From Verrucomicrobiota bacterium (lineage in GTDB: Bacteria > Verrucomicrobiota > Verrucomicrobiia > Chthoniobacterales > UBA10450), in the NCBI GenBank assembly GCA_003221195.1, contig QHQO01000020.1:17977-81976 (forward strand): a stretch of DNA of 64,000 nucleotides, given 5' to 3'. Of this stretch, positions 58,990-64,000 are shown in pieces. Each line of letters begins with the position of its first letter. The first letter of the stretch is position 1. Position numbers and translations under genes: made by a program. Under the pieces are notes generated by a model. The model saw nothing but the letters and a program-made list of their open reading frames with translations. It ran no database searches and had not been told where the DNA came from.

Positions 58990-60075
58990 GTGCGCATTGT
59001 TGATCTGAAAATCGAAGACATTGCCTTCGGCGGGAAAGGGGTCGGACGCGAGCAAGGGAAGGCTATTTTCGTTCCGTACACCATTGAGGCCGAACTCGTT
59101 TCTGCGGAGATCGTGCGCGAGAAAAAACAATTTGCCGAGGCGGAGTTGGTGGAAGTTAAGGAAAGCTCCCCACATCGCGTCACACCGAAGTGCCCCTATT
59201 TTGGCCGCTGCGGCGGATGCGCATACCAGCACATCGACTACGAACATCAGCTCGCAATTAAATGGCGGCAGGTGCGTAACGTTCTCCAGCGAATCGGCAA
59301 GCTAAGAGATATTCCTCTGCGCCCCATCATCCCGTCGCCAAAGCAGTACGAATATCGCAATCGTATCACGGTTCATGCACAGAATGGGATGATCGGATTT
59401 TTCCGGCGCGATTCACATCGCTTGATCGACATCGAGCGGTGCCCCATCTCCTGCGACGAAGTGAATCAAGCGCTGACGGAACTGCGGGAGCGAAATCCGC
59501 CCGATGGGCATTTCACCTTGCGCACGTTCTCGAGCCGGCGTGTTTTCTCTCAAACCAATGATCAGGTTGCAACTGCATTGCGCGATTTGATTGCCGATCT
59601 TGTTCCGGCGAATCAGGATCTCCTTATCGATGCTTACTGCGGTGCAGGATTCTTCGCCAAAGCATTGCTCAACAAGTTTAAGCGTGTTGTCGGAATCGAT
59701 TGGGACAAGTTCGCAATCGCGGCCGCAAAAGAAAACGCGACCGAGAAGGAAACCTATATCGCGGGCGATGTGGAAGAAGAACTTGGTCGCTTGAACTTGA
59801 CTGCTTTAAACAGTCAAGTTTCGCGGCGCAAGACTGATGATTCGGCGGTCATGACGCTTATTGTGGATCCTCCCGCGATCGGCCTTTCGGTAAGTGTGCG
59901 CCGCGCAATTCTCGATCTTGCGCCAGCGACGCTGATTTACGTTTCATGCAACCCAGCGACGCTGGCACGCGACTTAAAAGAGCTGCACGGGAAATTCACG
60001 ATCGATTCGGTTACGCCGCTCGACATGTTTCCGCAAACCGCCGAGATCGAAGTAGCGGTGCATCTTCACGCATAG
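58990..60075 (+). CDS. Class I SAM-dependent RNA methyltransferase, TrmA/RlmD family
   Basis: 361-aa ORF (GTG start); Fe-S-like Cys cluster CPYFGRCGGCAYQHIDYEHQLAIK, DAYCGAGFFAKAL, VDPPAIGL, YVSCNPATLARDL. Confidence 0.92.
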   Translation: MRIVDLKIEDIAFGGKGVGREQGKAIFVPYTIEAELVSAEIVREKKQFAEAELVEVKESSPHRVTPKCPYFGRCGGCAYQHIDYEHQLAIKWRQVRNVLQRIGKLRDIPLRPIIPSPKQYEYRNRITVHAQNGMIGFFRRDSHRLIDIERCPISCDEVNQALTELRERNPPDGHFTLRTFSSRRVFSQTNDQVATALRDLIADLVPANQDLLIDAYCGAGFFAKALLNKFKRVVGIDWDKFAIAAAKENATEKETYIAGDVEEELGRLNLTALNSQVSRRKTDDSAVMTLIVDPPAIGLSVSVRRAILDLAPATLIYVSCNPATLARDLKELHGKFTIDSVTPLDMFPQTAEIEVAVHLHA

Positions 60076-61880
60076 ACCAACAGGTCGATTTCTTCCGGCA
60101 GTAAATCGGAAACTTCGCGAATCACATTGCCGCGCAGAAGATGCATCAGCGCATGACGCTGGGGCGCGCCGAGAATTACGCGCGAGACGCCGAGCGTCGC
60201 AGCAACATCAACGATTGTTTCGGCTGCTGAAGGACTGACGGCATAACAAAACAGCGGTGTAATATTTTCTGCTTTGCGTTTGGCTTCAGCAAAGATCTCG
60301 CTCGCTTCGGTGTCTTCCTGCCATTTGCGGCCAACATCCTGTTCAGTCATGAACGGTTGTTCGCGCACGAAGAGAACATAAAGCCGTGCATTGAGCCGTT
60401 CTGTTTCGCGCAATGCGAAATCGAGTGTACGCCCCGCGCTGCGAATGGCACAGAGAAGTGATTCGCTGTCCGCTGAAGCGAACGCTTCGGTCTTCGGTCG
60501 CGCAAGATCGATTGCCAGCTGTTCCGGGGCCACACCAAATGCTTTCCGGGCTTCCTTTTTCATCCGGCGCTCATGCACAAGTCCGCGCAAAATTAAGCCG
60601 ACAGCGAGAATAGTGACGGCAAAGTACCGAGCATTCGGCTTGTCAATGAGCAGCGACATTTCGATTGCGGCCATGACAACAAAAGTGCCAAACATCAGCG
60701 CGCGCTCCCACGCTTTGATCGACAACTTCCGGTCGGTTGAACTGGCACCGAGATTGGTTGCGATCGCGCCGACAACACCGACGGCATACAGATCAGCCAG
60801 CCCGGCCATGTCTTTGACGAGAAGCACCAGCAGCATCGGGACGACAGTGGCAAGGACCATCGCGAAACCAGGAACTCCCCAGCGATTAAGCTGTTGAAAA
60901 ACTTTCGGAATCTCGCGATCCCGCGACATGAGGAATTGGATCGTAATCAAATCGACAATCGCGGTATTGACTGCCGACAGTAGCAACAAGCCAAAGACAA
61001 TACTGATTACGAGACCAAACGCGTGGCCGAGCGTGCCGCCCACGAATATTTGGCCCATGTAGCGCAGCATGTAGTCACGCACGCCTTCGGCGCCCGGCGC
61101 GTTAACGTCGCCGTTCGCAACGGTCAGGCCGGGTAGAGCGTGCATCGCGAGGCCGAGAAGAGCGGTGAACACACAGACCTCCATCATGACGATCAAGATT
61201 GCAGGCGTAGATGTTTTCGTGACGCGAGGATTAGCATCAGTGCTCCCCGGATCGAGTTTCATCACCCCAGTGGCATTGGCAATCGCTTCAACACCGGAAA
61301 GCGCAAGCACGATGCCGACAAAAGCAGCCCAGTTTTGCCCGAACGAACCGTGAAGCGGCTGCAAATTGTTCCACGCAAAGCCAAGATGCGGAATGCTGAA
61401 CGCGCCGAGCGCGATTACCACCACCACGGTTGGGACGGAGATGAGAAACGCGAGGCCCCCGGTGTGACGCGGACCTAACAAATTCAAAAGACCGATCACC
61501 AAGATCGAGAAGGCGGCGAATTTTTCCGGATGCGGCACGCCGAGATATTGGAAGGCGGAGAGCGCGCTGATAGCGGCCGTGACCAGATAATCGGCGATGA
61601 GGAGAAACGCGCCAACAATTGAAATGACTTCACTGCGATGTCGCACACTGGCATAGACGCCGCCACCGTCTGGATAGAGCCGACAGATCACGATATAATT
61701 CGCACCCACCAGTGCGGTCAGCACGCACATGGGCGCGATCAGCCAGAACGACGAATATCCGGCAACGGCGAACGCAAGCCCAATCACATAGGCCTTGCTG
61801 GTGCCCCAGTCGCCGTAAAGAATCGCCGCCGCGCGTTTCCAGTCGACATTGCGTGGCCGCTTAACGTTGGTTGGAATCAA
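60066..61880 (-). CDS. KimA-like APC-superfamily permease with C-terminal USP-like domain
   Basis: 604-aa ORF (TTG start with upstream GGAG); RAAAILYGDWGTSKAYVIGLAFAVAGYSSFW, APC membrane domain, USP-like C-terminus (VDVAATLGVSRVILGAPQRH). Candidate c-di-AMP riboswitch immediately upstream. Confidence 0.85.
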   Translation of the reverse strand: MIPTNVKRPRNVDWKRAAAILYGDWGTSKAYVIGLAFAVAGYSSFWLIAPMCVLTALVGANYIVICRLYPDGGGVYASVRHRSEVISIVGAFLLIADYLVTAAISALSAFQYLGVPHPEKFAAFSILVIGLLNLLGPRHTGGLAFLISVPTVVVVIALGAFSIPHLGFAWNNLQPLHGSFGQNWAAFVGIVLALSGVEAIANATGVMKLDPGSTDANPRVTKTSTPAILIVMMEVCVFTALLGLAMHALPGLTVANGDVNAPGAEGVRDYMLRYMGQIFVGGTLGHAFGLVISIVFGLLLLSAVNTAIVDLITIQFLMSRDREIPKVFQQLNRWGVPGFAMVLATVVPMLLVLLVKDMAGLADLYAVGVVGAIATNLGASSTDRKLSIKAWERALMFGTFVVMAAIEMSLLIDKPNARYFAVTILAVGLILRGLVHERRMKKEARKAFGVAPEQLAIDLARPKTEAFASADSESLLCAIRSAGRTLDFALRETERLNARLYVLFVREQPFMTEQDVGRKWQEDTEASEIFAEAKRKAENITPLFCYAVSPSAAETIVDVAATLGVSRVILGAPQRHALMHLLRGNVIREVSDLLPEEIDLLVYA

Positions 61881-61954
61881 TTCTTACTCCGAAACGAGAC
61901 TGGCTCGCGCGACGAGCGATCTCACTTCAGCAAGCACGGCTTTGCGCCGCAGCT

Positions 61955-62105
61955 CTTGCTCTTTAATGATGCTGACGAGGTTAGCTGTCGGGCTGGAGCC
62001 ATTAAATGCTCTCGATGCCGCGCATCGTTCGCCCCGATCCATACCGCTCTCGCGGATAGAATTTGGTTCCCCCGTTGGAACGGCCACTCGCCGTCCATTA
62101 AGCGA
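61955..62105 (-). promoter_or_regulatory. Cyclic di-AMP riboswitch (ydaO/yuaA leader)
   Basis: Minus strand: TCGCTTAATGG...AACGGGGGAACCAAA...GGATCGGGGCGAACGATGCGCGGCATCGAGAGC...GGCTCCAGCCCGACAGCTAACCTCGTCAGCATCATTAAAGAGC. Contains the ydaO core strings GGGGGAACCA, GGGGYGAA and CCCGACAGCTAACCTCGTCAGC; ends pair as P1 (CTTAATG/CATTAAAG). Confidence 0.9.
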
Positions 62106-62219
62106 AACAAAGAACTGGAGAAAGCATCTGATCGAGTCGAATCACAGTCAAGCCAGTCGTGGCCTAGAAACAACTTGCCAGTGGACAAGTGTGCAATGGA
62201 CAGTCACACCCGGTAAATA

Positions 62220-64000
62220 ATGGCGGAGCTTATAGAGGATATTGTTCTAGACGCGAGTGCGGGGGTACATCGGCCGCGTAATCTGGATTGGAAACGTGCT
62301 GCCGCATTGCTTTATGGCGATTGGGGTACAAGCAAAGCGTACGTAATTGGTCTCGCATTTGTTGCCGCGGGATTTTCGTCGCTGCCGATCATCCTGGCTG
62401 TTTGCGCGCTCACCGGCTTGGTCGGCATCAATTACGCGGTCATCTGCCGCCATTTTCCCGACGGCGGTGGCGTTTATTCTGCGGCCCGCTCACAAGGAAG
62501 ATTGCTCGCGGTAGTCGGCGCGCTGTTATTGCTCGCGGATCTCACGGTCACCGCGGCGTTGAGTGGTTGGTCAGCCCTCACCTATATCACCTCCGGCGCG
62601 GAACACATCGAATGGATCAGAATGGCGCGTGACCATATCGCGCTCACGACGATTGGAATGTTGTTGATCATGGGCCTGATCAATTATTTTGGGCCAAAAC
62701 ATTCCGGTAGCTTCGCGGTGGCGCTGGCGCTCCCGACTGCAGTGGTCGTCATCTTTTTGATTGCGCTCAGCGCGCCGCATTTCACCACCCATTTCCTCGA
62801 GCCGCGGCATCAAAGCCTGGCTACTGTGTGGGCGCAGTTCGTAGGCGTGATCCTGGCGTTGTCTGGCGCAGAATCAATCGCGAACCTCACAGGCGTGATG
62901 AAGCTCGATCCAGGATCGACGATGGAACACCCCAGCGTCGCTCGCGAGTCGGTTAAGGCGATTATCCCCGTGGCGATCGAGGTTGTCTTCGGCACGGCTC
63001 TGCTCGGCTGGGCGATGCTTTCCTTGCCGTCCGTCCTTGGCAAAACATTGCATCTCACGGACCGGGGCGAAATCGCGGCGGTTTTGGGACAGCGCAGCGA
63101 AGACATGCTCCGTTTCATCGGCGAACAATTTGCAGCCGCCACGTTTTCGCCTGCGGTCGGTCAGGTTTTCGGATGGATCGTTGGAATTGTTTTTTTCTTC
63201 CTGCTCTTGAGTGCGGCCAACACCGCCATCGTGGCAATGATCGGTCTGCTTTACATGATGGCGCGTGACCGGGAGATGCCGCGGCAATTTAAGCGCCTCA
63301 ACCGCCACGGCGTTCCGACCTGGCCGCTCGCCATCGCGATCGGTCTGCCGGCAGTCGTGCTACTTTTCGCTGCCAACTTCACGGCACTGGCAGGCCTTTA
63401 TGCCATCGGCGTAGTCGGTGCAATCACGGTGAATCTCGGTTCCTGCACATTCAATCGCACCGTTGGGTTCACTTGGTACGATCACGTCCTCTTTGGAATC
63501 ACATTTGTGATTCTGGCATTTGTCGAGCTGACACTGGCCCACACGAAACTCGATGCGCTTCAATTCGTGCTGGCGGTTTTGATCGGCGGGCTAGCACTGC
63601 GGGCTTACACATTGAAGCTTCAGGGTCTCACCACGCTCACGGTCACGCGCGAAGTTGCCAAGATGGTCACGCCCGACCTCGTGACAAGCATGCGGCCGCG
63701 TTTGGAGGAAGGTCAAAAAATCATGGTGGCAGCGCGCGGGATCACCCCGGTGCTCAGCTTCGCGATGGACGAAGCCCAATTACGCAAGGCCACTCTCTTT
63801 GTGCTCTATGTCAAGGAGGTGGCCGTTTACTTCACCGCAGCCGGCACACCACTGGGCCGGTCTAAATGGCAGGATGATCCTGAAGCGAATGCCATTATGT
63901 GTTCGATGTTCAAACTCGGGCGCGAGCGTGGCATCAACGTAATCCCGCTTTACGCCGTGAGCCAGGACGCCGCGGCGACGATTGTCGATCTTGCAGCCAC
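62220..64000 (+). CDS. KimA-like APC-superfamily permease with USP-like domain (second paralog, truncated by window end)
   Basis: Absent from the ORF track because no stop lies in the window. ATG at 62220 reads open to 64000: MAELIEDIVLDASAGVHRPRNLDWKRAAALLYGDWGTSKAYVIGLAFVAAGFSSLPIILAV...; closely similar to 60066..61880. Confidence 0.88.
   Translation, partial: MAELIEDIVLDASAGVHRPRNLDWKRAAALLYGDWGTSKAYVIGLAFVAAGFSSLPIILAVCALTGLVGINYAVICRHFPDGGGVYSAARSQGRLLAVVGALLLLADLTVTAALSGWSALTYITSGAEHIEWIRMARDHIALTTIGMLLIMGLINYFGPKHSGSFAVALALPTAVVVIFLIALSAPHFTTHFLEPRHQSLATVWAQFVGVILALSGAESIANLTGVMKLDPGSTMEHPSVARESVKAIIPVAIEVVFGTALLGWAMLSLPSVLGKTLHLTDRGEIAAVLGQRSEDMLRFIGEQFAAATFSPAVGQVFGWIVGIVFFFLLLSAANTAIVAMIGLLYMMARDREMPRQFKRLNRHGVPTWPLAIAIGLPAVVLLFAANFTALAGLYAIGVVGAITVNLGSCTFNRTVGFTWYDHVLFGITFVILAFVELTLAHTKLDALQFVLAVLIGGLALRAYTLKLQGLTTLTVTREVAKMVTPDLVTSMRPRLEEGQKIMVAARGITPVLSFAMDEAQLRKATLFVLYVKEVAVYFTAAGTPLGRSKWQDDPEANAIMCSMFKLGRERGINVIPLYAVSQDAAATIVDLAA

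Follow-up and report, generated by a model that had tools for sequence, protein, structure and literature searches.

What signal does the leader of a transporter-like gene in a Verrucomicrobiota bacterium sense, and at which step would it act on the gene behind it? The first-pass annotation of the 64,000-nt stretch analyzed here (the window) placed a cyclic di-AMP (c-di-AMP) riboswitch of the ydaO/yuaA class on the minus strand at 61955-62105, ahead of a gene for a KimA-like permease, and proposed that the switch might act on translation.

The aptamer and its pseudoknot

The riboswitch assignment was borne out by covariance-model search. cmscan returned a full-length match to RF00379 at 61954-62114 on the minus strand (model positions 1-134 of 134), with a score of 58.8 bits, well over the gathering score of 38, and an E-value of 4.4e-11; RF00379 was the sole Rfam family above threshold within the window. 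The conserved blocks that the annotation had read by eye, GGGGGAACCA, GGGGCGAA and CCCGACAGCTAACCTCG, are present in the order it gave, and alignment shows that the core blocks and P1 are kept both in the window aptamer and across 32 leaders of the same family. No second RF00379 copy was found in the draft genome, which spans 3.1 Mb in 276 contigs and is 87% complete. We conclude that the riboswitch is real and ordinary in kind. The class and its link to K+ transporters are known from the literature (PMC6488665), and its occurrence in Verrucomicrobia, about which the annotation was unsure, had already been predicted (Nelson 2013, as cited in PMC6488665).

One structural detail was revised. The annotation had the aptamer closed by CTTAATG/CATTAAAG, but the covariance-model alignment gives P1 as CGCU/AGCA, and the 3′ tail CATTAAA (61962-61968, minus strand) can pair along its whole length with the P6 loop TTTAATG (62000-62006, minus strand). 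The tail is therefore the second strand of a pseudoknot and not a P1 closure, an assignment ruled out by this pairing and by its covariation. Loop and tail change together in distant members: UUUAAUG/CAUUAAA in the family of the window is matched by CUUGGUG/CACCGAG, by ACUUCC/GGAAGG in another class and by ACGUGGUG/AUCACCGCG elsewhere. The best duplexes of 52 distinct loop/tail pairs averaged -10.16 kcal/mol, compared to -6.08 +/- 0.40 with shuffled tails (0 of 2000 shuffles as low), and counting each of 32 distinct loops once gave -10.43 against -6.09 +/- 0.49. The crystallized ydaO sequence printed in PMC5393176, a paper that mentions a stable pseudoknot in ydaO, has the same arrangement, with loop ACUCCUUCG and tail CGAAGGAG. 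Since that arrangement is shared, the P6-loop/3′-tail pseudoknot predicted here is a known ydaO feature, retained with different letters.

The genome also appears equipped to make the ligand. It contains a single DAC-domain protein of 290 aa, whose gene lies behind a folP-like gene; the protein has CdaA_N and DAC domains (PF02457/PF19293) and exceeds the cut-off of the NCBIfam model TIGR00159 (CdaA). From these matches we conclude that a CdaA diadenylate cyclase is encoded, the companion gene that the annotation had proposed to look for; with the covariance score also above the gathering value, neither of the refuting outcomes that it named came about. A PgpH-type 7TM-HD protein is present and may degrade c-di-AMP. 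Among three DHHA1 proteins, one whose frame has 342 aa is a possible DHH-type phosphodiesterase. A DAC protein is present in 95 of 100 relatives.

The permease and the genes behind related leaders

The product of the gene behind the aptamer (60066..61880, minus strand, TTG start at 61880-61878), here called KA, is a membrane protein of 604 aa that carries a Usp-like domain at its C terminus. It did not match Pfam K_trans, and a single-sequence phmmer search of the PDB at 0.001 found nothing, but a profile built from 19 relatives matched KimA only (E 3.2e-15) and hhalign related KA to the KimA-like group at 95.6%. An AlphaFold2 model of moderate confidence (pLDDT 66, pTM 0.56) had KimA with bound c-di-AMP as its best PDB match (Foldseek E 8e-16, prob 1.00). 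Profile alignment places KA S195, E198 and Y365 at KimA T230, E233 and Y377; the first and last of these KimA residues coordinate K+ (PMC10284832). In profile comparison the invariant YGDWGTSKAY of KA aligns with YGDIGTSPLY of Kup, and KA D24 and Y31 fall on the Asp and Tyr of Kup; the HMMER alignment to KimA is shifted in the region of KimA D36/Y43, the remaining two K+-coordinating positions. Of the residues that bind c-di-AMP in the cytosolic domain of KimA, R337 aligns with KA K326, and the alignment ends short of Q581 and S582. The phylum does have true relatives of KimA, with E-values down to 1.5e-53, and these form a separate group. Since KA has no direct single-sequence match to KimA and true KimA proteins stand apart from it in the phylum, we name it a KimA/KUP-superfamily permease, which by sequence is a lineage of its own and not a strict KimA orthologue. 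The KimA-like label of the annotation thus holds for the general type, on profile and fold, but not for orthology. K+ is the probable substrate.

A divergent paralogue that is 44% identical to KA, here called KB, starts with ATG on the other side of the leader (62220..63998, plus strand) and runs off the end of the window and of the contig. The Rfam scan of the window gave KB no riboswitch of its own. Judging from its position between the two units, the interval 62115..62219 is presumably a shared divergent promoter region. A consensus promoter scan found nothing in the KA/KB intergenic region; the minus-strand hexamer TTGACT (62146-62151) is a possible -35 element, with no good -10 seen, and TTGAC recurs upstream of the aptamer in relatives.

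RF00379 was found in 30 of 100 relatives. At family level the count was 35 of 83 genomes, and at phylum level 26 of 394. The family leader precedes a KA permease gene or a porin-permease operon at 32 places, and KB often lies divergent on the other side of KA leaders. One genome (G024, locus L047) has two tandem KA genes, each with its own riboswitch, plus the divergent paralogue. Behind seven leaders (L037, L043, L046, L049, L052, L055 and L108) the first gene encodes a BBP2-family (OmpL-like) porin; in six of these loci the permease starts within a few bases of the porin end, and the permease comes next wherever the contig extends. Orthologues of KA occur without a riboswitch in several other genera, and a search at E up to 1 revealed no hidden weak riboswitch before the permease at the tested loci of genomes without a hit.

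In the rest of the phylum, what comes first behind the riboswitch is a gene or operon for Kup, a TrkH protein, a KimA-like permease or KdpA/KdpB, and other targets are an Na+/H+ exchanger-type protein, citrate synthase and an SPFH/Band 7 protein. K+ transporters (this permease, Kup, TrkH, KimA and Kdp) make up the majority of targets. An SPFH/Band 7 gene stands behind the riboswitch at nine loci from several families (L032, L044, L058, L059, L101, L146, L147, L157 and L158), and a search of open-licence papers found no link between c-di-AMP riboswitches and SPFH proteins. The match before a citrate synthase gene (L140) scores 86 bits, and at another locus (L110, genome G103) the riboswitch match extends to the contig end.

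The expression platform and the TTG start

Between the aptamer and the start codon lie two hairpins. H1 (AGCAAGAGCTGCGGC..GCCGTGCTTGCT; 61929..61960, minus strand) is replaced in most other leaders by a different sequence with a pairing of its own. It pairs in both sequence types, and its permutation signal (z -3.4 over all leaders, not significant within subtypes) reflects the difference between the types. H2 (61891..61928, minus strand) has an outer stem of about 10 bp and a near-invariant CTCGTCGCGCGAG tip, and its arms covary (permutation z -4.9, 0 of 1000 shuffles). It lies directly 5′ of the ribosome-binding site, where GGAG (61887..61890, minus strand) is a putative Shine-Dalgarno (SD) sequence; most relatives have GAGTCG at the same place. 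The GCTCGtcgCGCGAGC hairpin and the GGAG that the annotation had seen before the TTG are both there, the former as the tip of the longer conserved H2.

Several other platforms were considered and set aside. No intrinsic terminator was found between aptamer and start, where a U-tract is absent, and the sole terminator-like site of the region is upstream of the aptamer. Pairing of the H1 3′ strand CGACUC with GAGUCG as an anti-SD is complementary in many leaders, but it does not covary (z +1.4) and is absent from the subtype of the window; we retain it as a possibility only. A start hairpin (H3) joining the SD to codons 1-4 was unsupported (z +0.2), and a leader peptide overlapping UUGA was dropped, as the spacing before the start differs among leaders. 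A TrkH leader elsewhere in the phylum (L138) carries AACCUCC just 3′ of the tail, complementary to GGAGGUU before the ATG, which makes it, among riboswitches of this class, a clear candidate for OFF control of translation.

The start codon itself tracks the leader. As read from the sequence, the first gene starts with TTG behind all 32 family leaders (25 permeases and 7 porins), whereas all 11 orthologous permeases without a riboswitch start with ATG (32/32 versus 0/11; Fisher's exact p 1.7e-10, uncorrected for shared ancestry), as do all six permeases that come second behind a porin. The same split is seen inside one genus, in which G111, G114 and G115 have both riboswitch and TTG, and G039, G051 and G057 have neither. 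Outside the family, the start of a riboswitch-carrying KA gene (L035) is apparently ATG, so the link belongs to the family leader type. This linkage seems to be a new finding. Read most simply, it makes UUG an element of the platform: initiation at this weak codon would depend on local structure, which would put the control at translation. A UUG fixed with the leader and the lack of an intrinsic terminator in the region searched both favor control of translation and lend support to the earlier proposal.

Proposed control of potassium entry

Taken together, our results make it likely that the leader of this KimA/KUP-type permease gene contains a functional riboswitch of the ydaO class, with translation from the UUG start as the most likely point of control. 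When K+ is plentiful, CdaA would raise c-di-AMP, which would bind the aptamer and stabilize P1 and the P6-loop/3′-tail pseudoknot, and permease expression would be lowered. The controlled step would be initiation at the weak UUG behind the conserved two-hairpin platform, and not an intrinsic terminator; ligand binding and the translational step are what we infer from these features. Ensemble folding with a pseudoknot mimic revealed no consistent switch: SD accessibility went from 0.35 in the free form to 0.32 (p 0.08), and that of the start-codon region from 0.52 to 0.58 (p 0.02), the wrong direction for an OFF switch. The proposed OFF direction thus rests on precedent and on the described cases in which c-di-AMP lowers the uptake of K+ (PMC10284832, PMC6488665).

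The same riboswitch could instead control transcription of the same target, by Rho or by pausing at H2, with UUG a habit of the lineage. The Bacillus subtilis prototype does work by termination (PMC9960051), H2 is long, GC-rich and covarying, and Rho sites are unreadable from sequence; but no U-tract follows H2, its GUUU lies inside the stem, and a transcriptional switch has no need of a UUG that occurs only behind the leader, at porin and permease genes alike. We regard this reading as unlikely, though it is the strongest competitor. That c-di-AMP turns the gene ON is more improbable still. In some leaders, such as that of L045, the free form pairs CGACUC with GAGUCG; when the tail is masked to imitate the pseudoknot, H1 re-forms and releases GAGUCG. 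The slight rise in start-codon accessibility points the same way. Such refolding is, however, missing from most leaders, including that of the window, and does not covary; moreover, the other targets in the phylum are mostly K+ importers, and the described cases have c-di-AMP lowering uptake. We give very little credence to a degenerate aptamer that has lost c-di-AMP binding or takes another ligand. The riboswitch is indeed missing before orthologous permeases in other genera and from three members of a genus that otherwise carries it, but the binding core and P1 are kept, the pseudoknot is upheld by compensatory change, and the aptamer recurs across the family (35 of 83 genomes), with the cyclase in nearly all relatives.

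We tentatively suggest, with appreciable doubt, that aptamer, two-hairpin platform and weak UUG form a portable module placed before either a KUP-type permease or a BBP2 porin-permease pair. Through translation, c-di-AMP might then set K+ entry across outer and inner membranes jointly, with the second gene (ATG) coupled to the first. With this locus, riboswitch-based control of K+ import by c-di-AMP would reach a family of uncultured, outer-membrane-bearing Verrucomicrobia relatives. Orthologous genes with and without the riboswitch inside one genus offer a natural comparison, and a start codon tied to the switch opens a way to test whether this riboswitch class acts on translation.

Among known transporters, KimA of B. 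subtilis (PDB 6s3k, 8b70, 8b71) shares with KA the predicted fold, the length and the soluble C-terminal alpha/beta domain, and its T230, E233 and Y377 align with KA S195, E198 and Y365, but a single-sequence search does not connect the two and the K+-site motif of KA is Kup-like. With Kup (K_trans) transporters KA has in common the YGDxGTSxxY motif, by profile comparison, and differs in giving no Pfam K_trans hit and in carrying a Usp-like C-terminal domain. Among known leaders, the B. subtilis ydaO/kimA riboswitch (RF00379) has the same aptamer class, the same P6-loop/3′-tail pseudoknot and a KUP/KimA-type permease gene downstream. The leader described here differs from it in the two-hairpin platform with a UUG start, where no intrinsic terminator was found, in the AU-rich pseudoknot UUUAAUG/CAUUAAA and in a permease of another lineage. 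The nlpC leader of Corynebacterium glutamicum is likewise of the ydaO class, has no canonical terminator and is most likely translational; its target is a cell-wall peptidase, and the available text of PMC9960051, on which these statements draw, describes no UUG-linked two-hairpin platform. The translational reading that we favor for the window leader fits this terminator-less precedent.
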